A DNA stretch of 63,327 nt. It comes from a virus. The notes under the pieces were generated by a model that did not search any database, had not been told where the DNA came from, and saw nothing but the letters and a program-made list of their open reading frames with translations. Below, in pieces: positions 6,912 to 54,208 of this stretch (the first letter of the stretch is position 1; each line of letters starts with the position of its first letter). The translations under genes were made by a program, and so were the position numbers. The DNA lies in the IMG/VR virus record IMGVR_UViG_3300025325_000020, positions 1-63,327 of that record. One strand, 5' to 3'.

Positions 6912-6924
6912 AAGGAGTATCCCT

Positions 6925-19638: not shown

Positions 19639-19705
19639 CCTTGCTTACCGTTCATCGTGCGAACGGCAAGCGATCGGCTTACGTGCCAATTCATTTTACC
19701 ATCTT

Positions 19706-19778: not shown

Positions 19779-19821
19779 CTGGTTTTATTTGAACCTTATT
19801 ATGTTGTTAAGGTGCCACTTT

Positions 19822-36525: not shown

Positions 36526-36880
36526 TAAATACCCCAACGAAACAAAAGCCGCTGCGATGGCAGCCCTTCTAGCCGGGCAGTCAATCAGCCAGGTCGCCAA
36601 GGAATACAAAATACCTAAAGGCACGATATCGTCCTGGAAAAACCGAGGCGCGGGTTTGCAGAACGCGACCCAAAAAAGGGAAATAGGGGATCTAATTACC
36701 GAGTATTTGCGGGAAAATCTGATTACACTTAAAACCCAGGCCGAATTCTTCCGCAACATTAAGTGGCTGAGCAAGCAAAGCGCGGAAAGCGCTGCGGTTC
36801 TGCATGGGGTGATGACCGATAAGGCGATACGCATCATCGAGGCCTCCAACCGGGGAGAACCGCTGAAAGAGGGTGGATGA
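36518..36880 (+). CDS. Putative terminase small subunit
   Basis: 120 aa from ATG 36518. The N-terminal helix-turn-helix is clear (KAAAMAALLAGQSISQVAKEYKIPKGTISSWK). Helices follow, like the oligomerisation part of small terminases. ATGA coupling to the large subunit supports DNA recognition for packaging. Confidence 0.75.
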   Translation: MANKYPNETKAAAMAALLAGQSISQVAKEYKIPKGTISSWKNRGAGLQNATQKREIGDLITEYLRENLITLKTQAEFFRNIKWLSKQSAESAAVLHGVMTDKAIRIIEASNRGEPLKEGG

Positions 36881-38568
36881 TCGATTACCGGATCGATATT
36901 CCGCGGATAAATACTGGGCCGTATGACTTCGCGAGAGAGAAGGCCGGGCCAATCAGATCGGGTCCCCCGCTCACCCTCCCGGACTGGATGGGTATGGCCC
37001 GCCCTTGCCTGGCCCCCGGCCGCGCCTTCGACCTGGCGAGGCACCGCTACCTGGATCCGATCTACGCCGACGACTGCCGCGAGGTTGTATTCATGAAAGC
37101 GGGCCAGGTGGGGATATCGGAATACCTCATCTCCTGGGTCCTGTGGAGCGCGGACGCGCGCGCTGCCACCGGGTTGTACGTGTTTCCCACCGACAGCGCG
37201 GTCTCGGACTTCGCCGCGGCCAGGCTGGGCCCGGCCATCGAGCCGGGGGTATCGGATTACCTGGCCGGGCTGGTGGTGGGCGGCTCGGCGGATGGCAAGC
37301 GCGGGGCGGACATGGTCAAGCTCAAGCGCATCCGCGACCGTTTTATCTATTTCCGTGGGGCGCAGGTCAGCCCGGACGGAAGGGCGCCTCAGCTCCGTTC
37401 GATCGATGCCGACGTTCTAGTCTTGGATGAGTTCGATGAGATGGACCCCCGCGCCGTGGCCCTGGCCGGGGAGAGATTGGGCCATTCGGGGATTGCCGAG
37501 AAACGCACCGCGTCTACCCCCACCTATACCGGGGCGGGCATCCACGCCGCTTACCTGGCGAGCGACATGCGCCAGTGGCACGTGCGCTGCGAGTGCGGGA
37601 ATAGGCAGCCGCTGGAAATCGACGATCTGGTGACAGAGTGGGACGCGCTCAATCGACCCGTAAGCTGGCATGGGGTGGACTCCGGAGAGCCTTATCTCGC
37701 CTGCCGCAAGTGCGGGAAGGGCCTGGATCGGGCCGGGGAGGGCGAGTGGATAGCTGCTTATCCGGATAGGCCCGTGCACGGCTACCACATTTCCAGGCTG
37801 TTCGCCGCCCACCGGCCGCTCTCGGACTTAATCGCCTCGCTGTCCGAGCTGGACGAGAGCAAGCGTCAGCAAGCCTATAACCAGGGCCTGGGCCTGCCCT
37901 ACCGCTCCCCCACCGCCCTGGCCTTGACCGACGAAGTCCTGGACAAGTGCCGCCGGGAGTATGCGCTGAACAAGGTCCCGGTAGGGGAGACCTGCATGGG
38001 CGTAGATGTGGGCAGTGTGCTGCACGTGATCATCCGGGAGCCGGCAGCCGCCGACTTCGAGCTGCGCTTCGCCGGGATGGTCGCCGACTTCGACGCACTG
38101 GCCGAGCTGATGCGCCGCTTTAAAGTGGGGCGCTCTGTGATCGACGCTTTGCCAGAGACCCGCTCCGCCCGCAAATTGCAATCCGGCTGGAAGCGGGGCG
38201 CGGTCTGGCTGGCCTATTACACCACCCAGCCAGCCGGCAGCAAGAAAGAAGACCCGCGCGAGTGGAACGTCAAAGAATTGGCCGTCAACATGGACCGCAC
38301 GCGCACGCTCGACGAGACGCTGGGCGCGTTCCTGAGCGCCTCCACGGGTGACCCTGGCAGCACGCTTCCGGCCAACGCGCGGGCGCTTAGGGATTACTAC
38401 GCCCACCTGAAAGCGCCCGAGCGGGTGCTGAAAACCACCGCCGACGGCAGCCAGGTCCCGGCCTACGTGGAGACCGGGCCGGATCATTTTTGTCACGCGG
38501 AGAATTACTGCCGTGCGGCGCTGGCCTGCCCCTATGGGGCGGGCTGGTCGCGCGGTCCGGCGGGGTGA
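36877..38568 (+). CDS. Terminase large subunit, GpA family
   Basis: 563 aa. The ATPase domain has the GpA-type Walker A region MKAGQVGISEY and Walker B VLVLDEFDEMD. A zinc-finger pair (CECGNRQ...CRKCGK) lies at ~240-285. The nuclease half begins GVDVGSVLHVII and includes a later VIDALPET acidic strand. The GpA type suggests lambda-like packaging with cohesive or defined ends. No cos site was recognised. Confidence 0.9.
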   Translation: MIDYRIDIPRINTGPYDFAREKAGPIRSGPPLTLPDWMGMARPCLAPGRAFDLARHRYLDPIYADDCREVVFMKAGQVGISEYLISWVLWSADARAATGLYVFPTDSAVSDFAAARLGPAIEPGVSDYLAGLVVGGSADGKRGADMVKLKRIRDRFIYFRGAQVSPDGRAPQLRSIDADVLVLDEFDEMDPRAVALAGERLGHSGIAEKRTASTPTYTGAGIHAAYLASDMRQWHVRCECGNRQPLEIDDLVTEWDALNRPVSWHGVDSGEPYLACRKCGKGLDRAGEGEWIAAYPDRPVHGYHISRLFAAHRPLSDLIASLSELDESKRQQAYNQGLGLPYRSPTALALTDEVLDKCRREYALNKVPVGETCMGVDVGSVLHVIIREPAAADFELRFAGMVADFDALAELMRRFKVGRSVIDALPETRSARKLQSGWKRGAVWLAYYTTQPAGSKKEDPREWNVKELAVNMDRTRTLDETLGAFLSASTGDPGSTLPANARALRDYYAHLKAPERVLKTTADGSQVPAYVETGPDHFCHAENYCRAALACPYGAGWSRGPAG

Positions 38569-39723: not shown

Positions 39724-39882
39724 ATGATTCACCCCGTCTCTTTACGGGCTCATATATTTTGCCATTGGCTGAAACTACACAAACCATCAAAAGGAATTTG
39801 GGAATACAACGGCACGCACTCTATATGTTTGCGCTGCGGTTTTGTGATTACCAAATTAGATAACGGACGTTGGGCATTGTGA
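39724..39882 (+). CDS. 52-aa Cys/His protein
   Basis: ATG 39724 directly follows the previous stop. There is a Cys in IFCHWLKLH and CLRCG further on, giving a possible zinc site, and an aromatic-rich C-terminus. No family is known to me. Confidence 0.6.
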   Translation: MIHPVSLRAHIFCHWLKLHKPSKGIWEYNGTHSICLRCGFVITKLDNGRWAL

Positions 39883-39896
39883 GGAGTTCTAACACC

Positions 39897-41561
39897 ATGG
39901 ACGGAAACGAGCAATTGATCGAGCGCGCGGAAGAAAACGTAGAGCGCGTGAAAGAAGCTTCGAAACAGCCCCGCTTTGCAAGGCCGAAGCCGGGCCAGTT
40001 CTACTCCTCGGTCTACGGCTGGGTGCAGGCCGCCGGGCAGGACGAGCCTTCTTACAAGCCCGATTCCCGCCTGCGGGATAAGTGGCTGCGCAGTTTCATC
40101 AAGCGCGAGCCGTATTTCCTGGGAGTGTTCAACAGCGTGGTCGATATCGACAGTAACCGCGGCTGGGAGCTGGCCGGTGGGCGTAACCAGGTGAGGCGCT
40201 TCACCGGCGTGCTGCATAACTGGCTGGTGGCGCCGGGCGTGCGCGGCTGGCGGCCGGGAGTTAAAGCGGCCGCGTCCAGCTTCTACGGTGCCGACATCGC
40301 CACGGTTATCGAGAATGGCCGGGATGGGAAGAACGGTCCGCTCAGGGGCTTCTACCACGTCGATCCGGCCCGCTGCCGCCTGACCGGGAAACAGGACGCC
40401 CCGCTCAAATACAACCCGCCGGCGGGCAAGGTCCAGGACTGGGCCGAGAGCGACTTCATCCGCGTCACGTCCCTGGTCGAGACCGCCGAAGAGATGAACG
40501 GGCTGTGCTATTCCGCCGGCAGCCGGGCGCTGGAACTGGCAAAGCTGATGGTGGCCGTCTACCAGCACGACAGCGAGCAGTTGGGGGCGCGCGCTCCCAA
40601 GGGCATCTTGCTCCTCCACGGCATCTCCGAAGAGCAGTGGGAAGACACCCTGAAAGTGCGCGGCGAGAAGCTCGACAGCCTGGAGCGGGAATACTACGGC
40701 GGCGTGCAGGTGCTGGCAAGCGAGGGTCTGGAGCAGATCGACGCTAAACTAGTCGCCCTCTCGCAGCTCCCGGCCGGTTTCGACATCGAAAAGTTCACCA
40801 ATTTGCTCATGTATGGCTATGCCCTGATCGTGGGCTACGACGCCCGCGAGTTCTGGCCGGTCTCCTCCGGGGCGCTGGGCACAGCCTCCGAGACCGAGAC
40901 CCAGCACCGCAAGGCCTCGGGCAAAGGCGGAACCGATTTCGCCCTGGGCCTCCAGGAGCAGATCCAGCGCCCGGACGTGCTGCCGCCCACCCTCCATTTC
41001 GGCTTCGAGCAGAGGGACGAGGAGTCCGATATCCTGGAAGCGGAGGTGGCGCTGGCCCAGATCCACAACGTGCGCGAGATGTTCGAAGCCGGGCTGCAAG
41101 CCACGGGGACCGGCATCATCGACCGCGAGGAGGCCCGCTCGCTCCTGGCCGAATCTGGCGTCATCCCCCACGAATGGACCGAGATCGAAGAGGATACCAA
41201 GGCCACCGATACCCAGGAAGCCCGGCTGAAGAGCAGACTGGAAAGGCTGATGGAGAATGAGCGCATCCAGCGGGCGGTGGAGCGATTCCCGGACGAGCCT
41301 TTAGTCGCCTACCGCTGGCCGGCCAACCGCACAGTAACCCTGGCAAAGCGCGCCGCCGACGCCCTGCCGCGGGGTTGGGTCATGCCCCGGCTGAAGAACC
41401 GGGCGGAAGGGGAAACCCTTTACGAAGACCCGGACGGCGATTTTACCATCACCGAAGGAGACGTGGACCGCGCCGTGGAGAAGGCCGGGCGGGTGGAGGC
41501 GGAGATTGCAGAGGTACTGGAGGCGTCTCCATTGCCTGCGGAGCAGGAAGGCGAGGCATGA
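39897..41561 (+). CDS. Portal protein
   Basis: 554 aa from ATG 39897 (GAGGAG). Size, position after the terminase and content fit: an N-terminal clip/wing region with FYGADIATVIENG, a long helical part (DKWLRSFIKREPYF...; QLPAGFDIEKFTNLLMYGYALIVG), and an acidic C-terminal tail. It forms the dodecameric DNA channel of the head. ATGA overlap with the next gene. Confidence 0.85.
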   Translation: MDGNEQLIERAEENVERVKEASKQPRFARPKPGQFYSSVYGWVQAAGQDEPSYKPDSRLRDKWLRSFIKREPYFLGVFNSVVDIDSNRGWELAGGRNQVRRFTGVLHNWLVAPGVRGWRPGVKAAASSFYGADIATVIENGRDGKNGPLRGFYHVDPARCRLTGKQDAPLKYNPPAGKVQDWAESDFIRVTSLVETAEEMNGLCYSAGSRALELAKLMVAVYQHDSEQLGARAPKGILLLHGISEEQWEDTLKVRGEKLDSLEREYYGGVQVLASEGLEQIDAKLVALSQLPAGFDIEKFTNLLMYGYALIVGYDAREFWPVSSGALGTASETETQHRKASGKGGTDFALGLQEQIQRPDVLPPTLHFGFEQRDEESDILEAEVALAQIHNVREMFEAGLQATGTGIIDREEARSLLAESGVIPHEWTEIEEDTKATDTQEARLKSRLERLMENERIQRAVERFPDEPLVAYRWPANRTVTLAKRAADALPRGWVMPRLKNRAEGETLYEDPDGDFTITEGDVDRAVEKAGRVEAEIAEVLEASPLPAEQEGEA

Positions 41562-41884: not shown

Positions 41885-42525
41885 GCTGGTACTGGAACCC
41901 CCGCTCCCACCGCTATACCTGGCAGAACGGCTCCGCCCGCTTCCTGGCCCGCGACCAGGTGCTGGCCTGGGTCGAGCAGCTCATCGACGCCGGCGGCGGC
42001 GCGGCCGACACCCTGGCAAACCTGGTCGCCAATGGCAGGCTCGCCGCCCCGGATTGGCTGGACAGCATGCGCCGCGAGATCAAGGACGCCTGTATCCAGC
42101 AATATCTTCTAGGCATCGGCGGGCGCAGCCAGATGGCGGCGGAGGATTGGGGTTCCATCGGCGGGATGCTCAAAGAGCAGTACGGCTGGCTGAAAGGCTT
42201 CTACCAGGAGGTGCTCGCCGGAGACCTGTCCGAGGCCGCCATCGCCATGCGCGCCCGCATGTACATCAACAGCGCACGCGAGGCCTACGAGCGCGCCCTG
42301 GGCAGGGTAGCCGCCCGAGCTGGCATGGACGAGGAGTCCTGGGCGACCGGCTTCGTCAGGACCGAGCATTGCGAAGACTGCCTGGGCTACGAGACCGAAG
42401 GCTGGCAGGAGATCGGCCATTTCCCCACCCCGGGCGATGGGTCTACCATCTGCCTGACGAGCTGCCATTGCAGCAAACATTATCGTAAAGCATCCAGCGG
42501 AGAGGAATTGTGGGAAACAACATAG
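41881..42525 (+). CDS. Head morphogenesis protein (Mu gpF-like)
   Basis: 214 aa. The C-terminal block CEDCLGYETEGWQEIG...FPTPGDGSTICLTSCHCSKHY is the Cys-rich signature of minor head proteins of this kind. Such proteins sit near the portal and help prohead assembly. The last 16 codons are repeated just downstream (42529-42576). Confidence 0.8.
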   Translation: MSWYWNPRSHRYTWQNGSARFLARDQVLAWVEQLIDAGGGAADTLANLVANGRLAAPDWLDSMRREIKDACIQQYLLGIGGRSQMAAEDWGSIGGMLKEQYGWLKGFYQEVLAGDLSEAAIAMRARMYINSAREAYERALGRVAARAGMDEESWATGFVRTEHCEDCLGYETEGWQEIGHFPTPGDGSTICLTSCHCSKHYRKASSGEELWETT

Positions 42526-42576
42526 CCCAACATTATCGCAAAGCATCCACGGGAGAAGAGCTGTGGGAAACAACAT
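42476..42576 (+). repeat. 48-bp tandem duplication at the head-gene end
   Basis: Copies 42476-42523 and 42529-42576 differ at six bases. Read in the head-gene frame, they give KHYRKASSGEELWETT and QHYRKASTGEELWETT, with four of the five changed codons silent. The second copy supplies the GGAGAAGAG and GTG start of the next gene. Confidence 0.85.
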
Positions 42577-42823
42577 CGTAGCAGACAACGGCCACGGGGC
42601 AAGGGCAAAAGTGGATCCCCGCGGAGAATCGGTCAAGGTCGAGGCCACCGGATTGGTGAGGATCGACGGCATTGCCTGTTTCAAGCGCGTCGAGCGGGCC
42701 GGCAAAATCTACCTGCAATTCTGCGACAACGACCGGCTGCGCGCTTCCTGCCGCGGCACGCGCCTGGTGGAGGTGCCCCTGGAGTCGTTGTTCCAGATTT
42801 TAGAGATGGAGAAAAGGCAATGA
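42563..42823 (+). CDS. Small hypothetical protein
   Basis: 86 aa from a GTG inside the second copy of the 48-bp repeat. The C-terminal ~50 residues are beta-rich (GLVRIDGIACFKRVERAGKI...). It overlaps the epimerase gene by 4 nt. Its function is unknown. Confidence 0.55.
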   Translation: MGNNIVADNGHGARAKVDPRGESVKVEATGLVRIDGIACFKRVERAGKIYLQFCDNDRLRASCRGTRLVEVPLESLFQILEMEKRQ

Positions 42824-43743
42824 AAATCATGATCACCGGATCGCGGGGTTTCGTGGGCGCGGCAACCAAGGATTATCTGGACCATATTGTCCAGAAAGGG
42901 AATTCCCACCCTTGCCAGGCGCTCGACTATGACCTGATGGACGGCCTGGACATTCGCGACGCAAACCAGCTCAAGGAATTCGCTAAATGCCATCGCCCTG
43001 ACCGCATCCTCCACTTAGCCGCCATCGCCCGCTTTGCCGACGCCGACAAAGACCCGCTTTTAGCCTGGCAGACCAATGTATTGGGCACGCAGAACGTGGT
43101 GGACGTGGCCGCGCGCTACCACATTCCCCTGGTATACGCATCGACTGGCTCCGCCATCATGCCGCTGGACGAGTTCGAGCCACCGTACAAGGAATTTCTC
43201 CCCGCGCGCGGCAACTCGGTGTACGGCTGCTCGAAAGCGTTGGGGGAGTGCATCGTGCGGCAGCATACCCCCCATATCATCCTGCGCTATGCCCACCTGT
43301 ACGGGGCGGAGAAACGCCATCACGGTCTTATAGGCGGGTTCCTGGATCGGATCGGGAGGGGACTTCAGCCAAGGCTGTTTGGGGGCAGGCAAAGCAACGA
43401 TTTTGTTTACATAAAAGATGTTGCACGAATAAATTATCTGGCGCTGGCTTCGAGCTGGGACCGCTGGAACCAAACCTTCAATGTCGGCTCCGGACAGGAG
43501 CTTTCGACGGAGCAGGCCGGGGAAATTATATGCCGGGTCGCCGGCTACACCGGAGCTATCGAGCGCTTGCCCGCACGCACGGTCGATCCGGGCCGGTTCA
43601 TTTTCGATACCGGCAAGGCCGCTGAATGGCTGGGTTTTGAAGCGGAGTTCGATTTCGAGAGCGGCCTGGCGGATATGATGGGGAAGGCGGAGAAAGCCGG
43701 GCAGGGAATGACAGTGAACGTGGAAGCGTTCATGAGAGGATGA
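42820..43743 (+). CDS. NAD-dependent sugar epimerase/dehydratase (extended SDR)
   Basis: 307 aa. Rossmann motif TGSRGFVG, then ILHLAAIAR, the active-site Ser/Thr region YASTGSA and catalytic Y-x3-K in VYGCSKALGE, then FNVGSG. It interconverts or dehydrates nucleotide sugars. It lies inside the head genes, coupled by ATGA to the previous one, and belongs with the methyl/sulfotransferase and glycosyltransferase genes at 47.7-50.9 kb. Confidence 0.88.
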   Translation: MKIMITGSRGFVGAATKDYLDHIVQKGNSHPCQALDYDLMDGLDIRDANQLKEFAKCHRPDRILHLAAIARFADADKDPLLAWQTNVLGTQNVVDVAARYHIPLVYASTGSAIMPLDEFEPPYKEFLPARGNSVYGCSKALGECIVRQHTPHIILRYAHLYGAEKRHHGLIGGFLDRIGRGLQPRLFGGRQSNDFVYIKDVARINYLALASSWDRWNQTFNVGSGQELSTEQAGEIICRVAGYTGAIERLPARTVDPGRFIFDTGKAAEWLGFEAEFDFESGLADMMGKAEKAGQGMTVNVEAFMRG

Positions 43744-43754
43744 AAGGAATGCCC

Positions 43755-44033
43755 ATGAGTGTCTTCACCTTCCCGCTTGACGAAGGCCAGGATAGAGAAA
43801 AGCTAACCGCGCTTATCCAGGAATTGGCAAATCTGACCGGATCGGCGGTGACCATCCGCGACCAGATCAGTGTGTGCACCAACTCCACCCGCCTGGCGAT
43901 CATTCTCAAGCACCTGGCCTGCGACGATCCGCGTGACGGCGTGACCGGAGACGGCGCGCCGGTCAAAAGAAGAAGAGCCAGACGAAATAACGGCATGGGA
44001 AAGGAGAGCGAGCCGGCCTTACAAAGCGGATAG
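43755..44033 (+). CDS. Small hypothetical protein
   Basis: 92 aa from ATG 43755 (AAGGAA upstream; an ATG at 43740 overlapping the epimerase stop is the alternative). It has a helical centre and a basic tail (KRRRARRN). No family was recognised. It is followed at once by a promoter. Confidence 0.5.
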   Translation: MSVFTFPLDEGQDREKLTALIQELANLTGSAVTIRDQISVCTNSTRLAIILKHLACDDPRDGVTGDGAPVKRRRARRNNGMGKESEPALQSG

Positions 44034-44062
44034 TTGCATTTATAATTTATTTATGCTATACT
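44034..44062 (+). promoter_or_regulatory. Promoter upstream of the capsid genes
   Basis: TTGCAT (44034-44039), 17 nt ending TATGC, then TATACT (44057-44062). The extended -10 is as in the promoters at 21258 and 36191. Confidence 0.65.
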
Positions 44063-44112
44063 TTTACAGAACTTGCAAGCTTTCAAGGCCGTAACCCGTT
44101 ATTGAGGTGGTG

Positions 44113-44142
44113 AGCCGTTCGGAGCAATCCGGGCGGCTTTTT
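44113..44142 (+). terminator. Terminator in the capsid-operon leader
   Basis: A 10-bp stem (arms AGCCGTTCGG and CCGGGCGGCT, two G-U pairs), 6-nt loop, five T residues. It lies ~45 nt after the expected start of RNA from the promoter at 44034. Confidence 0.75.
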
Positions 44143-44154
44143 GCGTATAGGTGT

Positions 44155-44310
44155 ATGGACTTCTTCAACTCCCGTGAATTCTGGATCGGTGTGCGGCAGG
44201 CGCTGCTTATGCTGGTGGACTTGTTAGAGCGGGGCCTGGCCGTCTCGCCGCGTACTTCCGAGCTGCGCAAGGCCGTGCGGGAGAAGAACCGGGAGACCGA
44301 AGCGGCCTGA
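44155..44310 (+). CDS. Small conserved phage protein
   Basis: 51 aa: FFNSREFWIGVRQALLML, then VDLLERGLAVSPRTSELRK. The pattern recurs in short proteins next to capsid genes of other phages. It starts inside the leader between two terminators. Confidence 0.6.
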   Translation: MDFFNSREFWIGVRQALLMLVDLLERGLAVSPRTSELRKAVREKNRETEAA

Positions 44311-44361
44311 GCAGGGGCGGGCTTTATGCCTGTCCTAATTGAATATTGGCAGCCCTAATCG

Positions 44362-44413
44362 AGCGCCGCGTTTCCGTGGAGCCTCACCTCCCACGGAGAT
44401 GCGGCGCTTTTTT
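44362..44413 (+). terminator. Strong terminator directly before the protease-scaffold gene
   Basis: Outer arms AGCGCCGC/GCGGCGCT, inner arms TCCGTGG/CCACGGA, then six T residues. It ends 22 nt before the ATG of the head protease gene, so capsid expression needs read-through or antitermination. Confidence 0.8.
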
Positions 44414-44435
44414 ACTTTCGGCTCAAGGAGGACGT

Positions 44436-46199
44436 ATGAATTTCTTCCAGGCACTCGAACAGCGCGTGCGAGCGATCGTGGTGGATACACTCAAAAAGCG
44501 CGCGGTCAAGGACGTGGATGAGTGGGACGGCAGCGCCGCCAATTACGATGATACCGCCGCCTATTGCTCCGCCTGCCTGATCGATGTCAACCCGGCAGGG
44601 GAAGACAAGAAGCAGTCCCTTTGTATGCTGCCCGTGCGCGGCCCCGGCGACGAAGCGGACACCTACGTGCGCCAGGCTGTGCACGCCGCGGCCGGCGGGC
44701 ACGGCATCAGCGCGGTCGAAAAGCCGGAGGGGGTAGAACAGGAGGCCTGGGACGCGGCCAAGAAATCCGCTGCCAAGAAGTTGGTCGCCGCCTACAAGGA
44801 AATGGACGAAGACGCGCCCGAGGCCGTCATGGACATGGCGGATATGTCCGCCGACGAAGAGCGCTCGGCTGCGCAGCTCCGCGCTATCGGCTCCTGGGAC
44901 CTGCGCGACCAGGTGCAGGTGCAGGCCAACGAGAAGTTCGGCATGGACGCCTGGGCCTGGGTTTCGGACATCTACCACGACAACGGCGGGGAAGTCTTCG
45001 CCGTGATCGCCTACGAAGGCAAGCTCTACCGGGCGCCGGTCACCATCGAAAACGACGCCGTGACGGTTGGGGATACCAGCGAAGTCGTGGTGGAATTCAG
45101 GCCATCCGGCGCGGCCGGGGAAGAGGAAGAAGGCGAGGCAGCGCGTGCCCGCACCCGTTACACCGTCCAGCGCCAGGCCGATGGGAAAATGCGCTGGTTT
45201 GCTACTTCGTGCAGCGCGGTGCTCAACCGGGTGGGGGAGATAGACAGCCGGGATCTCTTCGACAGCTTCATCGCCAAGATCGAGGAAACGGGCGAATACC
45301 CCTACCGCTGTTTCTACCATTTGAAGGAGCAGTTCCGCACCGGCCAGTGCGATTTCGTAGCGCGGGACGGCAACTTGCTCATCACTTCGGGCGTGTACGA
45401 TGACTCAGATCTTGCCCGCGCCGAGATCGCCGCCCGCATGGCCAGCCCCGAAACCTGGGGAGATTCCATCAGCTATTGGGCCACCGAGCCGGAACTGGTC
45501 GAGGTGGCCGGCGGCATCCGCATCCCGGTCTACCGGTCCGGCATCCTGGAAGAGATTTCCACCGCCCCGGAGAGCGACGTTGCCGCCCTGTACACCGGGG
45601 GCACCCTCAAGAAGGAGGAAAGACGCATGTTGACAGGAAAATCACTCGAAGCGTTCGTGGCGCTGTGGGGCGGCGACGAAGACAAGGCCAAGGGCTGGCT
45701 GGAAAGCAACGTGGACGCCTCCAACCGCGCCATCGAAAGCGAAGGCCAGATCGCCCGCACGGCCCCGGCAGAGACCTTAGCTGCCCCGCCGGCCGAGTCG
45801 CCCGCCGCTCCCGCTGCCCCTGCGCAGCCAGGAACTGTGGAGATCGACGAAGCGGCCACGTCGGCCATCGCCCGCGCGATTGCGAGCGACACGGCGTTCC
45901 AGGAAACGCTCTCGGCCTTGGTCGCCCGCCAGCTCGAGCCCATCGTTACCCGCATCGACGGCACGACCCGCTCCATCCAGGAGATGAGCGGGCGCCATAC
46001 CAAGGCGGTCAAGGGGCTGGAAGATCGCCTGGGGGCGCTCGAGCTCGACGAGGACGAGAAGAAGCGCGCCTGGCAGAGCGATCTGCCGGCCGCGTCCCGC
46101 TTGCAAGTCACCTACCGCCCGCGGGAGAAGCCCGCGGGTGAAGCTGAGCCAACCTATGCCGACCGGGCCTCCGAGACCCTGGCGGCGATGGGGTCATAA
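44436..46199 (+). CDS. Prohead maturation protease fused to scaffold
   Basis: 587 aa from ATG 44436 (AAGGAGG). The N-terminal ~130 residues (WDGSAANYDDTAAYCSACLID...) are of a type common in phage head proteins. The middle part, with WGDSISYWATEPELVEV...GILEEISTAPES, resembles the Ser protease of prohead proteases. The C-terminal ~170 residues form an Ala/Pro-rich linker and coiled coil, as in scaffolds. Protease and scaffold in one chain just upstream of the capsid gene is usual. Confidence 0.75.
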   Translation: MNFFQALEQRVRAIVVDTLKKRAVKDVDEWDGSAANYDDTAAYCSACLIDVNPAGEDKKQSLCMLPVRGPGDEADTYVRQAVHAAAGGHGISAVEKPEGVEQEAWDAAKKSAAKKLVAAYKEMDEDAPEAVMDMADMSADEERSAAQLRAIGSWDLRDQVQVQANEKFGMDAWAWVSDIYHDNGGEVFAVIAYEGKLYRAPVTIENDAVTVGDTSEVVVEFRPSGAAGEEEEGEAARARTRYTVQRQADGKMRWFATSCSAVLNRVGEIDSRDLFDSFIAKIEETGEYPYRCFYHLKEQFRTGQCDFVARDGNLLITSGVYDDSDLARAEIAARMASPETWGDSISYWATEPELVEVAGGIRIPVYRSGILEEISTAPESDVAALYTGGTLKKEERRMLTGKSLEAFVALWGGDEDKAKGWLESNVDASNRAIESEGQIARTAPAETLAAPPAESPAAPAAPAQPGTVEIDEAATSAIARAIASDTAFQETLSALVARQLEPIVTRIDGTTRSIQEMSGRHTKAVKGLEDRLGALELDEDEKKRAWQSDLPAASRLQVTYRPREKPAGEAEPTYADRASETLAAMGS

Positions 46200-46224
46200 C
46201 CATCCTTTACGGAGGAAGAACGAA

Positions 46225-47604
46225 ATGAAAACAAATCTCGTGCAAAGGACCCGCACGGCCCCACCGCCAGTCGGGAGAGCTGCTTCGATCGGCGGGCGAC
46301 CCGTCCGGCGCGACCGGGGCGATCTGACGGTGAGCGCCTTAGCCACCATCTACGGCTGCTGCGGCTTGTTCGACATGTGCTCGGACGCCGACCTCATGTC
46401 GCTGACTTTCGAAGGCGCCTCGCCTTTCCTGGACTGGATCGGCTGGGAGCGCACCGACGTGTGCGTGATCAAGAAAAACTTCATCACCTTCGTGCGCGCC
46501 GAAGGCAGCCAGGGGGCCGAGACCGCCGGCTGGCTGGCCGACCCGTGCGCCGACCCGCACGGGGTCGAGTGGGGCGAGTGCGATTTCACCTTGACCGACT
46601 TCGCCCGCCTGCGCCGCTCGGGTCCGACCCGCGACATCACCAAGACCGGCCTGCGCTACTGCGACATCCAGCCGCGGTACAGGCTCGACGGGACGCGCAT
46701 CGACGACGACCGCGAGTACGACATGGTGCTGGCGTTGGAAGTCCTCATGCAGGACTTGAAGGACATGGCCGTCTCCGGCAACGCGGCCACCCCCGGCCAG
46801 TTCGACGGCCTCGAAAGGCTCATCAAGACCGGCTACGTCAACAGCCACGGCCGGCGCTGCACGGCCATGGATTCGGTCGTGATTGACTGGAACAACAACG
46901 GCATGGACGGCGGGGCCGGTATCACCTGGAACGGCCTGCCGGTGGCCGCGACTTATTCCTTCGTCGAAGTGCTGCGCGCGGCCTATAAGCGCATCCGCCA
47001 TCGCATCCGCATGGCACCCTCCCTGGCCGCGCAGAGGCTCAACGTGGGCGATATCGTGCTGGTGCTGCCCGAGGACTTCGTGGACTGCGTGCTGGACGCC
47101 TACACGTGCTGGAGCGTGTGCGACGGCACTTCCACCAACCTGGTGGCGCTCAACTCGCTCGAAGGCCGCCGCTTCCGCGACAGCCTGCTGGGCGGCATGT
47201 TCGGGGGCGGGCGCATCTTCTTGGACAGTTTCGAGATCCCCGTCCTGCCCTACGACTGGGGCCTGATCAAGGGGCCGAACCATTTTGACGCTTACCTCCT
47301 GACGGGCCAGGTGGGCAATATCAAGGTTTTGCAGGGCCAGTACAACGACATGGCCCCGGTATCGGCCAAGCGCGCCGACCGCTACAACACGGACGGCGGG
47401 CGTATTTTGACCTGGCGCGAGGACGATCACACCTGCGAGCAGCAGATCGTCGAGATGCAGCCGCGCATCCTGGCCTGGGCGCCCTGGGCGGAAGTCCGCT
47501 TCCAGGATGTCAACTGCGCCGTGCCGGGCGGCGTGATCGGGCCGGATCCCTGGGAGACGAGCTTCTTCCCTGAGGGCTCCTTCTCCGTGGCGGCCTGCCC
47601 GTAA
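46225..47604 (+). CDS. Major capsid protein
   Basis: 459 aa from ATG 46225, with a strong GGAGGAAGAA site. Position after the protease-scaffold, size and the absence of enzyme motifs support it. Many Cys and Asp residues are present (IYGCCGLFDMC; DPCADPHGVEWGECDF), unusual for an HK97-fold capsid and perhaps giving metal or disulfide stabilisation. A 14-bp hairpin follows the gene. Confidence 0.8.
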   Translation: MKTNLVQRTRTAPPPVGRAASIGGRPVRRDRGDLTVSALATIYGCCGLFDMCSDADLMSLTFEGASPFLDWIGWERTDVCVIKKNFITFVRAEGSQGAETAGWLADPCADPHGVEWGECDFTLTDFARLRRSGPTRDITKTGLRYCDIQPRYRLDGTRIDDDREYDMVLALEVLMQDLKDMAVSGNAATPGQFDGLERLIKTGYVNSHGRRCTAMDSVVIDWNNNGMDGGAGITWNGLPVAATYSFVEVLRAAYKRIRHRIRMAPSLAAQRLNVGDIVLVLPEDFVDCVLDAYTCWSVCDGTSTNLVALNSLEGRRFRDSLLGGMFGGGRIFLDSFEIPVLPYDWGLIKGPNHFDAYLLTGQVGNIKVLQGQYNDMAPVSAKRADRYNTDGGRILTWREDDHTCEQQIVEMQPRILAWAPWAEVRFQDVNCAVPGGVIGPDPWETSFFPEGSFSVAACP

Positions 47605-47631
47605 GCCTGGTGGTTTTCATCTGGAAATAGT

Positions 47632-47665
47632 CACCCTGGTCCTGGTGTTTGCCAGGACCAGGGTG
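47632..47665 (+). other. Strong hairpin after the major capsid gene
   Basis: A perfect 14-bp stem (47632-47645 with 47652-47665) and TGTTTG loop without a T tract. It may stabilise the capsid mRNA or reduce read-through into the sugar genes. Confidence 0.7.
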
Positions 47666-47675
47666 GGGAGCAGCT

Positions 47676-49154
47676 ATGCCGGTGAAATCAAACGGCTACA
47701 AGCGTTCGCCAGAGGAATGGGCGCAGGTTTGCCTGTCGGTGGACAGCGGCTATGTCCCCGGCGGGAAGCGCCAGGCAGCCGGTCTGTACGAGAACGGCTG
47801 TAAGTACGTCCGCGAGCGCATCCGCCCCCTGGGCTTGTGGAAAGCCGGCGACGTAGTGCTCGATATCGGCTGCGCCAACGGGCGGGTTGCGATGGGCCTG
47901 CTCGAGGAAGGCGTCTTCTATCACGGCCTCGAGATCGTGGCCGGCTGTGTGAAGTTCTGCGAGAGCGCCTTCGCCCCCTGGAGAAACTTCCACTTCCACT
48001 ACCTGGACGCAGCCAATCCCCGCTACAACCCGGGTGGGCAGATCCAACCCGAGCGCGCCGTCTTTCCCTTGCCGGACGCCTCGATAGACGTGGCGATTGC
48101 GTCCAGCCTGTTTACCCACCTGGAGACGCCCGAAGTCGCGGCGCGCTACCTCGGCGAGACATGGCGTGTGCTCAAGCCGGGCGGCAGGCTGTTCGCTACC
48201 TGGCTGCGCAGCCCGCCGAACGAAGTCGCGCAATCCGCGGCGCGCACGGTCTACCGCGAGGCCGATATCCTGAATCTCTTAGGCGGGCGCTGGACGATCC
48301 TGGACACTTCCCGCGGCTTGACCGATGCCCCGCACGACCAGTGGACGTTGGCGCTTTCTAAGTCCGATCCGAGAGTATCCATGCACTACATCCTTGCCAA
48401 AGACGTACAGAACGTGGTGGTCTCCGCCCAGCGCAGCGGCACGACCTGGCTGCAAGCCCTCCTGGGCGCTTACTTGTGCACCGCCTACGGGCTGCCGGAC
48501 GGGAACCTCATGAAGGCGTTGGACCTGACCCGCTCGGCCGGGCTGCCCGTGACGGCTTTTACGCATGACCCCCAGCGGGATCTGCCCGCTTGCCCGCCGG
48601 TCGAGACTGAATACGCCGGCAAGCGCATTGCCCTGCTCGTGCGCGATCCGCTCGACACGCTCCTGTCGCAGTTCATGCTGGCCCGCCACCGCCGCCGCAC
48701 GGTAAGCGCCGAGACATCGGCGCGGGATTACATCCTGGAGAAGCTGCCTGCCCTGTTGGCCTTCTACGAGGCCTGGCTGGGCGCGGATAAATCCGCTTTC
48801 GGCGGCTTCGAGGTCTACACCTACGAAGCCTTCCACCAGGACGCATCCGGCGAGCTGGAGCGGCTGGCGCAGTTTTTCGGGTACGCCTCGAACCGCGAAG
48901 CGCGCTGGGCGGCGGTGGAGTTCGCCGATTTCGAGCACATGCAAGCCATGGAGAAGAGCGGGCGTTTCCACGAGCACTACGCGGTCAACGACTTCCTGCC
49001 GGTGGAGGACGCTCGCGCCATGCGCACGCGGCGCGGCCGCATGGGCCGCGGCCGGCGGGCGCTTGCGGAGGCGGACATTGAGCGGGCCGAGAAATCGATC
49101 GCCGCCTCTCCCCTTGTAGGCGCATTGTACGCCAGGGAAGCCGCCGGTGGATAA
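47676..49154 (+). CDS. Methyltransferase-sulfotransferase fusion
   Basis: 492 aa from ATG 47676. Residues ~60-225 are a class I SAM methyltransferase (VLDIGCANGRVAMGLLEEG; later VLKPGGRLFATW). Residues ~250-450 have sulfotransferase features: SAQRSGTTWLQALLG (5'-phosphosulfate loop), VRDPLDTLLSQFM (3'-phosphate site) and YTYEAFHQDASGELERLAQFFG. It would methylate and sulfate a glycan or other acceptor using SAM and PAPS. It sits between the capsid gene and the glycosyltransferase. Confidence 0.82.
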   Translation: MPVKSNGYKRSPEEWAQVCLSVDSGYVPGGKRQAAGLYENGCKYVRERIRPLGLWKAGDVVLDIGCANGRVAMGLLEEGVFYHGLEIVAGCVKFCESAFAPWRNFHFHYLDAANPRYNPGGQIQPERAVFPLPDASIDVAIASSLFTHLETPEVAARYLGETWRVLKPGGRLFATWLRSPPNEVAQSAARTVYREADILNLLGGRWTILDTSRGLTDAPHDQWTLALSKSDPRVSMHYILAKDVQNVVVSAQRSGTTWLQALLGAYLCTAYGLPDGNLMKALDLTRSAGLPVTAFTHDPQRDLPACPPVETEYAGKRIALLVRDPLDTLLSQFMLARHRRRTVSAETSARDYILEKLPALLAFYEAWLGADKSAFGGFEVYTYEAFHQDASGELERLAQFFGYASNREARWAAVEFADFEHMQAMEKSGRFHEHYAVNDFLPVEDARAMRTRRGRMGRGRRALAEADIERAEKSIAASPLVGALYAREAAGG

Positions 49155-49158
49155 CGGG

Positions 49159-50931
49159 ATGGAATCCTTGACGGTTGTCGTCCCCTTCTGGAACGGCCAC
49201 GCCACCATCGAACGCCTGCTGGAGTCGCTGCCTGACGCTCTGCCCGTCGTGGTGGTGGACGACCAGTCCGATTCGCCTTACCGGTCGAAGCGGGAGAACG
49301 TGACCGTCATCCGCCCCGCGGCGAAAGGCTATTTCGCCGGGGCGGTCAACGCCGGCCTGTCGGCCTGCGGCGGGGATGCGCTGGTCGTCAATCAGGATGC
49401 CTGGCTCGAAGGCTCCGCCTGGCTTGACCTGCTAGCCGAGGAGCATGAGAAGCACGCTCTTATTGGGCACGGCGTGATGGCGCACCCGGCCTGGCCGAAA
49501 GGCTACGTGCAGGGCACGTTCATGTTCCTGCGCCGTGACGCGATCTCGAAAGTAGGCGGCCTGAATGCCCGCGATTACCCCTTGTGGGGCTGCACCGCCG
49601 AATGGCAGGTTCGCGCCGCCCGTGCCGGTTTCCGCGCCCTGCCTTTGCCCGAGATCCCCGGCTTCCACCACCAGGAGCGCAAGCCGGGCGCTTTCGGCGA
49701 TTCCATCACCGAGGCGCTGCGCAGGGAGCCGGGCGAGAAAGGCCGCTTTATCCGCACCCCGCCCATGATCAGCATTATCGTGCCCTGCTTCAACTATGGC
49801 AAATATTTGCCGGATCTCGTGGCTTCCCTGGCGGGCGGGCCGTCCAGCCTGGGGAATATGCTTGGCCAAACCTTCGCCGCCTGGGAGCTGGTCATTGTAG
49901 ACGACGCCTCCACCGACAAATCGGCGGAGATGGCCGCGGCGCTGGCCGATCCCTGGAAGGGCATCCGCCTGGTGAGAAGGGCGAAGAACGGCGGCACGGC
50001 GGCGGCCAACAACGACGGCGTACGCGCGTCCTTCGGACGCTATATCACCGTCCTGGGCGCAGACGACATGATGGAGCCATACCGGCTTGAAGCCCTCTAC
50101 CAGGCGGCGGAGGCCCACCCGCACTCCGTCGTCTACGACGACGTGGCCCTCTTCAAGGCCGGCGAGCGCATGCAGACCTGGGCCATGGCGGAGTACGACT
50201 TCGAGAAGCTGCTGCAGAAGAACCATATGCACGCCGGCATCTTGTTTCCCAAGAAAGCCTGGGAAGAGACCGGCGGCTACCCGGAGAGTATGCGCGAGGG
50301 CCGCGAGGACTGGGCCTTCAACGTGGCCCTGGGAGTCTGGGGCTACTGCGGGGTGAGGGTGCCGAAAGCGGGCTACCTCTACCGCCGCGAGAAGCACAAC
50401 CGCACGCTCAGGAATTCGGGCCCGGGCTGGAGGGAGCGATTTACAGGCCAGATGAAAGCCTTGTTCCCAGGGCTGTACAAAGGAGAGAGACCGATGGCAT
50501 GCTGTGGAGGCGGGCGGGCGCCCGCCAGGAAAATGAACGGCAAGGGGGCGGCCAGCCTGCCCGGCGCGGCCGGCATGCTGCGCATCGAGTACGCGGGCTT
50601 GAACGATGGCGACATGCCCTGGTACGGGCCGGTGACCGGCACGCGCTACGTGTTCGGCGGGGTGCACAAGACAGGCTACATCGACCCGCGCGACGCGCGC
50701 ACCGGCAATTCCAAGAAGCCGGGCTTGCTCGATATCTGGGAGCACGGGCGGGCGCAGTTCCGAGAGGCCCCGCTGCCGGTCCAGGCGGTGGCAATGCCGG
50801 CGGCAGCCCCGGCGATTGCGCCGGAGGCTGAGCTGGAAGCGCCAGAAGCCCCGGTAGAAGTGGTTGTCGAGACAGAACTGACCCCGCTCCCCAGAAGCAC
50901 CCCACGGCGGAGGAAGAAAAGTGGCGATTAG
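49159..50931 (+). CDS. Double GT2 glycosyltransferase fused to a small virion-type protein
   Basis: 590 aa from ATG 49159 (a GTG at 49147 is possible). The first GT-A domain covers ~1-200 (VVVPFWNGHATIERLL, VVVDDQS, YPLWGCTAEWQVR). The second covers ~205-435 (ISIIVPCFNYGKYLPDLV, VIVDDASTDKSAE, VLGADDMM). From residue ~446 comes a different domain, CCGGG..., YGPVTGTRYVFGG, GYIDPRDARTG, as in small proteins that follow capsid genes. An ATG with AAGGAGAG at 50494 could start this last domain alone. Confidence 0.85.
   Translation: MESLTVVVPFWNGHATIERLLESLPDALPVVVVDDQSDSPYRSKRENVTVIRPAAKGYFAGAVNAGLSACGGDALVVNQDAWLEGSAWLDLLAEEHEKHALIGHGVMAHPAWPKGYVQGTFMFLRRDAISKVGGLNARDYPLWGCTAEWQVRAARAGFRALPLPEIPGFHHQERKPGAFGDSITEALRREPGEKGRFIRTPPMISIIVPCFNYGKYLPDLVASLAGGPSSLGNMLGQTFAAWELVIVDDASTDKSAEMAAALADPWKGIRLVRRAKNGGTAAANNDGVRASFGRYITVLGADDMMEPYRLEALYQAAEAHPHSVVYDDVALFKAGERMQTWAMAEYDFEKLLQKNHMHAGILFPKKAWEETGGYPESMREGREDWAFNVALGVWGYCGVRVPKAGYLYRREKHNRTLRNSGPGWRERFTGQMKALFPGLYKGERPMACCGGGRAPARKMNGKGAASLPGAAGMLRIEYAGLNDGDMPWYGPVTGTRYVFGGVHKTGYIDPRDARTGNSKKPGLLDIWEHGRAQFREAPLPVQAVAMPAAAPAIAPEAELEAPEAPVEVVVETELTPLPRSTPRRRKKSGD
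50494..50931 (+). CDS. Internal in-frame start: small virion-type protein
   Basis: ATG 50494 lies in the same frame as the glycosyltransferase and is preceded by AAAGGAGAG at ideal spacing. The product would be 145 aa: a CCGGG knuckle, the TGTRYVFGG domain, then an acidic Ala/Pro/Glu tail and a basic end (RRRKKSG). It is likely to be made both alone and as the end of the enzyme. Confidence 0.55.
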   Translation: MACCGGGRAPARKMNGKGAASLPGAAGMLRIEYAGLNDGDMPWYGPVTGTRYVFGGVHKTGYIDPRDARTGNSKKPGLLDIWEHGRAQFREAPLPVQAVAMPAAAPAIAPEAELEAPEAPVEVVVETELTPLPRSTPRRRKKSGD

Positions 50932-51244
50932 GCTGATCCTGGCTGCTTTCGCCGTCTACCGCCTGGCCGGGATGGTCGCCCTCGACGTGGGCCCGTTCGG
51001 CGTCTTCGAACGGCTGCTGGCCTGGGCCGGAAGGTTGGCGGCAGGCAAGCCCAAATACAGCGCGGCCTGGAGCCTGGCCGAGGCCCTCAACTGCCCTTAC
51101 TGCCTGGGCGTCTGGCTGGCAGCGCCGGTCTGGCTGCTGGTCAGGTCGAAGGGCAAGTGGAGCGATTTTATCCTGGGCGTCTTCGGTGTCGCCGGGATGC
51201 AAGCGTTTTTGGAAGATTTGGAGGGATCGCATGGCCCCAAGTAA
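50921..51244 (+). CDS. DUF1360-like membrane protein
   Basis: 107 aa from a GTG at 50921 (GGAGGAAG upstream). Hydrophobic segments, then LDVGPFGVFERL and CPYCLGVW, the Cys pair typical of DUF1360. Such proteins turn up among phage structural genes. Their role is unknown. Confidence 0.75.
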   Translation: MAIRLILAAFAVYRLAGMVALDVGPFGVFERLLAWAGRLAAGKPKYSAAWSLAEALNCPYCLGVWLAAPVWLLVRSKGKWSDFILGVFGVAGMQAFLEDLEGSHGPK

Positions 51245-51614
51245 TCCGGTCGAATTCGTGCGCCGCTTGGCGAACGATCAGACATTACTCGTAGGCAACT
51301 CGGTCTTGGACGGCGGCCCGGACTGGGTCACGCGCCGCAAGACCACCATCAGCGCGGACATGGTGGAGCGCAGCGTAACGGTTGCGCTTTGGAACGCGGG
51401 CAATGAGATCGTGGCGGCGGTGCACTTCCCGGACTGGACGGACATGAACCGGTACTGCCGCCAGCGCCGTTTGCACTACGACCAGGGCAACGTGAAGGTG
51501 TACGGCTATCACGGGTTGGGGGTGAACGCGGGCAGTGTAGGCAACGTGATGGAATACGAGATGCGGGTCGGGGTGTGGGCCGGGTGTGGGAATCATTTCT
51601 TGAAGACGACGTAG
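51231..51614 (+). CDS. Putative virion-associated protein
   Basis: 127 aa from ATG 51231, overlapping the previous gene by 14 nt. Beta-rich, with no known motif. It lies between the DUF1360 gene and the structural protein at 51648. Confidence 0.5.
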   Translation: MAPSNPVEFVRRLANDQTLLVGNSVLDGGPDWVTRRKTTISADMVERSVTVALWNAGNEIVAAVHFPDWTDMNRYCRQRRLHYDQGNVKVYGYHGLGVNAGSVGNVMEYEMRVGVWAGCGNHFLKTT

Positions 51615-51630
51615 CGGAAGAGTACTTCCG
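51614..51630 (+). repeat. Dispersed hairpin repeat, copy 5
   Basis: GCGGAAGAGTACTTCCGC (51614-51631), with 7-bp arms. It lies 17 nt before ATG 51648, beginning on the last base of the previous stop. Confidence 0.75.
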
Positions 51631-51647
51631 CGCTCGAGGAGGAACCT

Positions 51648-52292
51648 ATGAAAGCAACTGGAGCGTTCGGAGCCCAAGGCTCTTTATCCATGAAAGTCAT
51701 CCGCGCCAAAGGGCCAGGCCTGCGCTGGCACCTGGCGAACCGGCTGCGCTGGGTTTTCCTGTGGGGCTGTCTGACCGCCAGCCTGGCAAAGCTGTTCAGC
51801 AAATTCACCGGCGTTCCGACCATCACCAGCCAGCTTGCGGTGCGGGTGATCAAGGCGGATGGGCGCGTGATCGATTACGGCGTCGTCGGGCGGCGGGTCG
51901 TGACCGACGCGGGCGTGGCCTTCCTGGTGGACGCCTGGCAGGGCATAGTAGAGCCGGAGATCATGCGCTATCACGCCCTGGGCACGGACGATACCCCCGG
52001 CGAGGCGGTGGGCGATACCGGGCTGCAATTGGAGCTGACCAACCACTACACGCCGGACAACACCCGCGCCACGGGCACCCTGGCCGAAGGGGCGACCGCC
52101 AATATCTTCCGCAGTGTGGGTACAAACACCATTTCGGACGCCATCGCGGCGGTGGTCGAGCATGGCCTGATAAGCCAGGCGGCGACCGGCGGCGGCACGC
52201 TGTGGGACCGCACCACGTTTGCGGTGATCAACCTGGCGATTGGCGATTCGCTGCAATCGACCTACGAAGCGACGCTGAATTCGGGCGGTTAG
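51648..52292 (+). CDS. Phage structural protein
   Basis: 214 aa. After a basic N-terminus (~1-60), the rest is beta-rich with the order MRYHALGTDDTPGEAVGDTGL, LELTNHYTPDN, AVVEHGLISQ, LWDRTTFAVINL, ending SGG. This run is characteristic of a family of phage virion proteins of unknown exact place. GAGGAGGAA precedes the start. Confidence 0.65.
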   Translation: MKATGAFGAQGSLSMKVIRAKGPGLRWHLANRLRWVFLWGCLTASLAKLFSKFTGVPTITSQLAVRVIKADGRVIDYGVVGRRVVTDAGVAFLVDAWQGIVEPEIMRYHALGTDDTPGEAVGDTGLQLELTNHYTPDNTRATGTLAEGATANIFRSVGTNTISDAIAAVVEHGLISQAATGGGTLWDRTTFAVINLAIGDSLQSTYEATLNSGG

Positions 52293-52451
52293 GCTGGAAT
52301 TGCGCTTGCACAGGCTGCTTTATCCTTCACCTGCGGGTTCGCCTCTGGATGCGACATAGTCTCATCCTGGACGTTTGTGTGTGGGACAATCCCGGCCCAA
52401 AGGCCGCAAGCGCAATAAGGTAATTATAAGCTGGATTCTGCTAAATGAAAC
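52293..52451. other. Gap bounded by an 11-bp inverted repeat
   Basis: ATTGCGCTTGC (52299-52309) and its exact complement (52406-52416) enclose 96 nt without a gene. The stretch ends just before the two-gene unit 52452-53773, which may have been inserted here. Confidence 0.5.
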
Positions 52452-52850
52452 ATGAACCTGATCCTTCGCAACGAACTCGTAGATGATCCGCTGTCGCGCG
52501 GCTACTCCGGCATGTCCGACGATCAAGCCGCTGCCGATCTCAATGCAGTGTACCGCACGCGTACACGCACCTACATGGATTCGGCTGAAATTTATGAGAA
52601 GACGGATAGCACCGAGTTCCAGGCAAAGACCGATCCGCAAAAGGTCTACATCCGCGACATCTGGAACCTGGGCGCAAATGTGGACGTGCGGTCCGGATCG
52701 AAAGCTCGGAATGTCTACATCACGATCTTCGGGGCCGGATCGGCTACTGTCCAGGCGCTGGCCGCGGCATTGAATGTGCCCATCAGCCGGGCCGAAGAAT
52801 TGGGACTGAGCGTTGTCCTGGCCGGAGAAGTTGGAGAGGCGCGCAAGTGA
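52452..52850 (+). CDS. Conserved phage protein
   Basis: 132 aa beginning NLILRNELVDDPLSRGYSGM, then LNAVYRTR, and near the end ISRAEELGLSVV. The opening (EL..DPL.RGY..M) is widespread in phage proteins near the tail genes. The function is unknown, probably structural. Confidence 0.65.
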   Translation: MNLILRNELVDDPLSRGYSGMSDDQAAADLNAVYRTRTRTYMDSAEIYEKTDSTEFQAKTDPQKVYIRDIWNLGANVDVRSGSKARNVYITIFGAGSATVQALAAALNVPISRAEELGLSVVLAGEVGEARK

Positions 52851-53773
52851 GAACGGTTGCGCTGGTGGGTTTCGCAGACAATACCAGGTCGTTTGCCTAC
52901 CATCTCCCGGCAAACGTGGAGTTGTGGACGCTCAACCGCGGCTGGAGCTTCGCGGAGCATTTCACCCGCATCGACCGCCTGTTCGAACTTCACGACTTGC
53001 CTTATCTAAGCGACCCAAACAATGCCGACACACGCCAGTCCTTATCTGATGCCAAGCAGTCGCACTGGGATTGGCTGCAAGGGCCGCACGATTACCCGCT
53101 TTATTGCCTGGACGCTTACCGCGAAATTCCCGGCTCCGTTTCCTACCCGCTCCAGGCCGTGATGGAAGATGCGTTCAGACATATCTGGCGCGGGAATGAA
53201 AATGTTAGGCTGGCGGCTTCCACGTTCGATTTCATGCTGGCCCTGGCGATCCACGAGCGGGTAGACCGGGTGGAGATTTACGGTTTCGAGATGGGGACCG
53301 GCACGGAATTCCAGTACCAGCACGCCACTGCCATGTTGTTGATTGGGCTGGCAGGCGGGCGCGGGATCGACGTGTGGACGCCCGAAACGAGCGGGCTGAT
53401 CCCGCGCATGAAACTGTACGGGTACGAGGGAGCGCAAATGATCACGAGGCAAACGCTGGAAGCGTATAAACGCCAGGCTGATACGGAGCGAGACCGCTAC
53501 AAGGCATTGACGAACGCCCGCCTGGGTATCTTGCAGCATTTGATGCACGTGAACACAAATGAAAGCCTGGCGCAAAAAGAGCAGATGGAAGATGTGCAGA
53601 ACGACTATCTGGAAGCTCTTCAGGCTGCGGCGCGTTGGGATGGTGTGCAGCAGGTGCTCAATTTGCTTGTTGCCGAATGCGACATGCTGGAGGTAAACCC
53701 GGAGATGATCAAGGCCGGGATGACGATCCAGCCAGCATTCGAAAGGATGGGTGACGATGGCCGTCACACATAA
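52847..53773 (+). CDS. Rossmann-like protein, possibly DUF115-type, surface modification
   Basis: 308 aa from a GTG at 52847 (GTGA overlap). It begins VALVGFADNTRSFAYHLP, a beta-alpha nucleotide-binding-like start, followed by ELWTLNRGWSF and VEIYGFEMG. The last ~100 residues are helical. The fold reminds of MptE/DUF115 proteins found in glycan loci, but the assignment is weak. It stands out among tail genes as a non-structural protein. Confidence 0.5.
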   Translation: MRTVALVGFADNTRSFAYHLPANVELWTLNRGWSFAEHFTRIDRLFELHDLPYLSDPNNADTRQSLSDAKQSHWDWLQGPHDYPLYCLDAYREIPGSVSYPLQAVMEDAFRHIWRGNENVRLAASTFDFMLALAIHERVDRVEIYGFEMGTGTEFQYQHATAMLLIGLAGGRGIDVWTPETSGLIPRMKLYGYEGAQMITRQTLEAYKRQADTERDRYKALTNARLGILQHLMHVNTNESLAQKEQMEDVQNDYLEALQAAARWDGVQQVLNLLVAECDMLEVNPEMIKAGMTIQPAFERMGDDGRHT

Positions 53774-54203
53774 ATGGGGCGCGCTGGGATCAAAGATCAC
53801 GGCTCTCTCTTCGAGCCAGTTGAACAACGTGGCAAACGCAGCGCAAAAGATCAGCAGCGCGATCTCCAACGATACAAACCTGTACCTGTTTATGGACGTG
53901 ATGCTGAAGCTATCGACGGCTACCGGGAACCGGGCGGCCGGGGCGCACGCCAGGTTGTACTTGCTGGCCGACCTGGGCGATAGCAATTATTCGTTCGGCT
54001 CCTCTTCGCTCGATCCAGGGGCGAACAACTGGTTGTGCAATTTCAACTTCGACAGCGGGGCAACTGCTGCGCGTGTCAACGTTCAAACCATGTTGCCCAT
54101 CCCGCCTGAGAATTTCAAGCTGCTCCTCGAAAACCGGACCGGGCAGCCGTTCACCAGTTGCACGGTGCTTTCCTACCGCCGTTACTATATGCAATCCACA
54201 TAA
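53757..54203 (+). CDS. Putative virion protein
   Basis: 148 aa from ATG 53757. Beta-rich with LYLLADLGDSNYSFGSSSLDPGANNW, like small decoration or fibre proteins. It overlaps the previous gene by 17 nt. The next gene is the LamG-repeat protein. Confidence 0.55.
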   Translation: MAVTHKWGALGSKITALSSSQLNNVANAAQKISSAISNDTNLYLFMDVMLKLSTATGNRAAGAHARLYLLADLGDSNYSFGSSSLDPGANNWLCNFNFDSGATAARVNVQTMLPIPPENFKLLLENRTGQPFTSCTVLSYRRYYMQST

Positions 54204-54208
54204 TAGCC

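Follow-up and report, generated by a model that had tools for sequence, protein, structure and literature searches.

A glycosyltransferase reading frame that probably also encodes a small head-cluster protein in the head operon of an uncultured phage family

The window, the whole stretch of DNA analysed here, is a 63,327-base IMG/VR virus record (IMGVR_UViG_3300025325_000020) with an integrase gene and a tRNA-Thr. Its head operon includes genes for a short-chain dehydrogenase/reductase (SDR) type sugar epimerase, a methyltransferase-sulfotransferase fusion (MT-ST) and a glycosyltransferase (GT) with two GT2 domains, all on the plus strand between the terminase and portal genes and the tail genes (Table 1). 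A preliminary description of this DNA had placed the three genes co-directionally inside the head operon, and their coordinates, families and catalytic motifs check out. It had also treated the small FGG protein at 50494 as a separate neighbour of the GT gene, which must be corrected. The GT2 frame has no stop until 50931 and the ATG at 50494 lies within it, in frame, so FGG is the C-terminus of the GT2 open reading frame (ORF), with its own Shine-Dalgarno (SD) sequence and ATG, and has no separate reading frame. The ORF, GT::FGG, may start at ATG 49159, which has a weak SD, or at GTG 49147.

A search of viral contigs with the probable major capsid protein (MCP) returned 38 loci, some of them copies of each other, and one further locus was found in a contig of a metagenome-assembled genome (MAG). 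The core order in these relatives is capsid, GT::FGG, DUF1360. Wherever a relative with a GT can be read through the junction (33 cases), its GT continues in frame into FGG without a stop, and the internal start is likewise an ATG in 33 of 33. The FGG parts fused to a GT begin with M(x)CCG and the DUF1360 gene usually comes next. Among these junctions are L054 and L055, whose capsid proteins are merely remotely related, and L064, retrieved via FGG and not via the capsid protein; the FGG alignment A1 was too diverse as a seed for scanning the collection, and a tighter set gave one new locus.

The internal starts are preceded by strong SD sequences. Paired with the 16S tail, the 32 tested have a mean duplex energy of -8.9 kcal/mol, as against -2.8 kcal/mol for 413 further ATGs that lie in frame in those ORFs (p 4e-19), the GT starts are weaker than the internal ones at a mean of -6.1 kcal/mol (p 5e-4), and the SD at the internal start beats the mean of 2000 synonymous recodings in 32 of 32 lineages (Fisher p 1.3e-7), all p values counting lineages as independent though they are related. 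Every one of the 32 internal starts reaches -6.9 kcal/mol or lower, a level attained by 7% of the control ATGs. As the peptides bearing the SD differ (KGERP, KEVRP, SGRFP, GGDY, GSIDP, EGRTE), the nucleotide signal appears to be maintained while the protein changes. An internal start with its own SD, in the GT frame and with a shared stop, is the arrangement of an in-frame nested gene, and one ORF probably gives both free FGG and GT-FGG, both starts presumably being used. The C and Nu3 genes of phage lambda are in-frame nested head genes of this kind, with long and short products that have a common C-terminus by way of an internal start. The long form there carries a protease, whereas here it bears glycosyltransferase domains.

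FGG also occurs by itself. Directly after the capsid gene there is one stand-alone FGG gene in L018 and there are two in tandem in L027, starting at the same methionine as the internal ATG, and no PF00535 domain was found in the records of either virus. These genes indicate that FGG is a protein in its own right. In a capsid tree of 37 proteins L018 is nested among fused lineages, so the GT was probably lost there and FGG retained; the position of L027 was not resolved. The AlphaFold2 model of FGG has a core, residues 30-90, at a predicted local distance difference test (pLDDT) score of about 95. By eye, the C-terminal FGG tails of L005, L006 and L008 look like helix-hairpin-helix repeats (LKGVGKSKAQTLRKAGI).

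The enzymes of the window appear intact. The SDR retains its GxxGxxG and YxxxK motifs, and its closest solved relative is a UDP-glucose 4-epimerase (4zrm, 5e-28). In the MT-ST, the S-adenosylmethionine and 3'-phosphoadenosine 5'-phosphosulfate motifs are preserved (VLDIGCANG, RSGTTW, RDPLD). The GT2 part matches PF00535 in two stretches (3.8e-39) and keeps VDDxS twice, NQD and RED; its second domain matches chondroitin synthase (PDB 2z86, 4e-13), and its domains match PHROG profiles of GtrB-like O-antigen conversion enzymes (PHROG 841). No match to GtrA (PF04138) or Polysacc_synt_3 was found in the whole record, and no membrane segment in GT-FGG, in which no 19-residue stretch exceeds a hydropathy of 1.33. 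The overlaps of 4-11 nt that had been described between most of these genes and their neighbours largely hold: 4 nt between the SDR gene and gene 42563, 11 nt between the GT and DUF1360 genes, and 4 nt between the Rossmann-like gene and gene 52452. That between the MT-ST and GT genes (8 nt) exists only with the GTG start at 49147; otherwise a gap of 4 nt separates them.

Genes for sulfation, methylation and sugar interconversion recur next to the capsid gene in the relatives. Most have a GT2-GT2 part, as in the window; in L006, L008, L015 and L016 it is a single GT2, with GT2-GT4 genes ahead of the scaffold gene, and in L030, L031, L034, L052 and L053 a GT4 is added at the N-terminus to give GT4-GT2-GT2. 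Sulfotransferases of two families lie directly upstream of GT::FGG in the window virus, L029 and L051, the latter two having GT4 and Sulfotransfer_2 close by. A UDP-glucose dehydrogenase gene is close by in L038, FkbM or other methyltransferase genes in L028, L054 and L055, and an SDR homologue lies beside a GT4 gene in L019; the window virus has an SDR too.

Table 1. Features of the head operon in the window
Feature	Position	Strand	Basis or remarks
Terminase large subunit	36877..38568	+	PHROG 675, 2e-93; PF05876
Probable portal protein	39870..41561	+	Position after terminase; kept in relatives; no family match
SDR nucleotide-sugar epimerase, 307 aa	42820..43743	+	PF01370, E=3e-35
Protease/scaffold-like head gene	44436..46199	+	Precedes MCP in relatives too; no Pfam or PHROG match
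Probable MCP, Cys-rich	46225..47604	+	Follows protease/scaffold; conserved in relatives
Hairpin of 16 bp, no U-run	47631..47666	+	Between MCP stop and next gene; z -4.9
MT-ST, 492 aa	47676..49154	+	PF08241, 1.6e-10; PF13469/PF00685, ~1e-8
GT::FGG ORF	49159..50931	+	Two GT2 domains (~residues 1-190, 202-440) and in-frame FGG protein
Internal SD, AAAGGAG	50479..50485	+	8 nt ahead of ATG 50494
FGG protein, 145 aa, MACCGGG...VTGTRYVFGG...	50494..50931	+	Internal ATG in GT frame
DUF1360 small hydrophobic protein, CPYC motif	50921..51244	+	PF07098; syntenic after GT::FGG in relatives
Rossmann-like protein, 308 aa	52847..53773	+	No Pfam, PHROG or PDB match

The explanation we favour, with a probability of about 0.6, is that the head operon carries a module for virion glycans whose transferase is anchored to a head protein, free FGG and GT-FGG both arising from one ORF. 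Ribosomes entering at the GT start would make the GT2(-GT2)::FGG fusion, and those entering at the strong internal SD and ATG would make free FGG, a small head-cluster protein encoded after the capsid gene. Through its FGG part the fusion would most likely dock on the capsid, or on FGG already present on it, and the soluble transferase could then work beside its acceptor in the cytoplasm, placing sugars on the capsid or FGG. The part of the SDR would be to provide or convert the nucleotide sugar, that of the MT-ST to cap the glycan. A cytoplasmic acceptor is most likely for a soluble GT that lacks a membrane segment, in a record where neither GtrA nor Polysacc_synt_3 was matched, and because the fusion partner of this GT is invariably encoded after the capsid gene, a head-tethered enzyme is the simplest reading. 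We infer the acceptor, capsid or FGG, and the chemistry of the glycan. That the capsid-tethered GT builds a methylated or sulfated virion glycan, and that this strategy has been retained throughout a deep phage family of Chloroflexota, is a more tentative proposal whose odds fall a little short of even. The glycan decoration of the virion suggested in the preliminary description is thus kept in part: unrelated sugar families recur at the capsid gene and a head-cluster gene forms part of the GT frame, while the Rossmann-like gene and a separate FGG drop out of it.

Other readings of the locus have to be weighed. The GT and FGG might be functionally independent, the fusion being a tolerated read-through from a GT that was inserted ahead of FGG; the structural role would then fall wholly to FGG made from its own start, and the GT would still glycosylate virion proteins without being targeted by FGG. 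This would agree with FGG keeping its own strong SD everywhere and occurring without a GT. However, no stop has become fixed at the junction in 33 lineages despite many codons one step away (373 among the 30 GT codons nearest the junction in 32 lineages), and the fusion has been maintained while the GT part varied between GT2, GT2-GT2 and GT4-GT2-GT2; we therefore regard independence as unlikely. Conversely, the fusion might be the only product, with the internal ATG a conserved linker methionine and FGG a targeting or acceptor-binding domain, since the constraint on M(x)CCG could be one of protein sequence and a conserved peptide takes in part of the SD. Such a reading is very improbable, given that SD strength is retained across the differing peptides listed above and that the stand-alone FGG of L018 and L027 starts at exactly the same methionine.

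Two further possibilities concern the target of the sugar genes. They could target the envelope of the host, converting its serotype or excluding superinfecting phages, and be no more than passengers in the late operon, a possibility that the preliminary description had left room for and to which the GtrB-like PHROG matches and the integrase of a probably temperate phage lend some weight. The absence of GtrA and Polysacc_synt_3 matches from the record, the soluble GT without a membrane segment, and its fusion to a head-cluster protein within the late gene run argue against it and make it improbable. Phage GTs are also able to modify DNA bases (PMC12619734), but a GT fused to a head-cluster protein and encoded adjacent to the capsid gene makes phage DNA as the substrate the least probable of the explanations considered.

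Several observations weigh against the tethered virion-glycan module itself. Synteny suggests that FGG is in the virion, yet no known fold matched it: a Foldseek search of the FGG model against PDB and BFVD gave no significant match. The AlphaFold2 model of the MCP had a pLDDT of 32 and was not used, leaving its fold unconfirmed. In L032 the MCP is present and FGG was not detected. The relatedness of the lineages behind the SD p values counts here as well, as does the part of the internal SD that falls within a conserved peptide, YxGERP. Finally, scans with the window's own SDR and MT-ST as single-protein queries, which can reach only close relatives, found them nowhere but in this virus and in L001, a near-identical copy of it.

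The closest published parallel is Corndog, of the Cluster O mycobacteriophages, where an O-methyltransferase, two GTs and a GlcNAc-transferase (GlcNAc, N-acetylglucosamine) are encoded between portal and protease, with a proposed role in capsid modification; their products were made in infected cells and not identified in purified virions (PMC4351075). There as here, genes for sugar and methyl transfer lie within the virion operon, with GT genes and accessory sugar-modifying genes side by side. In Corndog, however, the genes are separate, and no sulfotransferase, epimerase or head-protein fusion was reported (PMC4351075). A tblastn search of 50,697 phage records with GT-FGG gave 76 matches at E<=1e-5, none of them to a Mycobacterium record, so homologous transferases were not found. 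Work on mycobacteriophages has reported glycans attached to subunits of capsid and tail, as later papers summarize it (Freeman 2023, cited by PMC12619734 and PMC11256854), and the related phage Maravista has its putative GTs close to the 3' genome end (PMC11256854). In those summaries phage-encoded GTs likewise place glycans on capsid or tail subunits, but they report no fusion of enzyme and head protein.

Two other comparisons are with enzymes of the same family. The GtrA/GtrB/Gtr clusters of temperate phages also encode a GT2-family enzyme (hence the PHROG 841 match), but here there is no GtrA match and no membrane segment, and the location is the head operon. Chondroitin synthase (PDB 2z86) has two GT2 domains in one chain, a likeness at the level of sequence, and differs in that the present pair is fused to a phage head-cluster protein. 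Our literature search found no precedent for combinations of GT, sulfotransferase and capsid genes or for fusions of a GT to a decoration protein. The idea of a virion-glycan module is already known from mycobacteriophages. The initial statement that no described phage system has this combination therefore needs narrowing: GTs with an O-methyltransferase (Corndog) and virion glycans were known, while the sulfotransferase, the epimerase and the nested fusion are not in those papers. As far as our searches reach, the nested GT/head-protein ORF, the sulfotransferases and the phage family itself appear to be new.

Few cases of phage virion glycosylation are known. A conserved fusion of a GT to a probable head protein that is also made separately would, if true, be a concrete answer to the open question of how transferases reach the virion. 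If virion glycans are sulfated, as the recurring sulfotransferases would suggest, they are of a kind that the papers compared do not mention. The locus also marks an uncultured phage family, probably of Chloroflexota, with the probable capsid protein and FGG having no match among 50,697 cultured phage records; their profiles gave nothing credible against PDB sequences. Among 396 genomes of the class of the MAG noted above, eight have MCP matches, four strong (E<1e-100) and four weak. Such capsid-gene matches in Chloroflexota MAGs suggest Chloroflexota as hosts, an assignment based on MAG contigs, where misbinning can occur. In L040, a contig of an Ardenticatenia MAG, the phage GT2 frame continues at 7279-7368 into two CRISPR-type 28-nt repeats, 62 nt from start to start. 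Perhaps this junction is an assembly join via a phage-matching spacer, which would be host evidence. The integrase gene of the window (18718-19779), from which the phage is probably temperate, is followed at once by the complete tRNA-Thr, a likely attachment site. Laminin_G_3 (lectin-like) domains occur in two ORFs, at 54209-55873 and 4471-5277, which are candidates for receptor binding.

The MCP label itself is given by position, synteny and conservation. Across 37 MCP homologues, Cys is the majority residue at 14 columns; the N-terminus of FGG carries exactly two Cys in nearly every case; and a CxxC is conserved in the DUF1360 neighbour across relatives. The Cys-rich MCP, the CC of FGG and the CxxC of DUF1360 suggest that the capsid could have a disulfide or metal chemistry. 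That the FGG cysteines are glycosylated is disfavoured, as the CC is present also in L018 and L027, whose records have no GT2. Behind the capsid gene, 28 of 34 relatives have a hairpin with z < -2 (mononucleotide shuffles) and a sequence that differs between them, which may set the expression of capsid and GT apart; an Rfam scan of 42000-54500 gave zero matches.

The Rossmann-like gene at 52847 had been counted among the glycan genes, a membership we withdraw: it has no family match, and its relatives in L056 and L057 (at 5617-7110 in the latter) lie downstream of unrelated capsid genes. A reading of it as GT42/DUF115-like was considered and has been dropped. Compared with its relative in L056 (5857-6564), the C-terminal half is nearly identical and the N-terminal half diverged, the picture of a recent mosaic.

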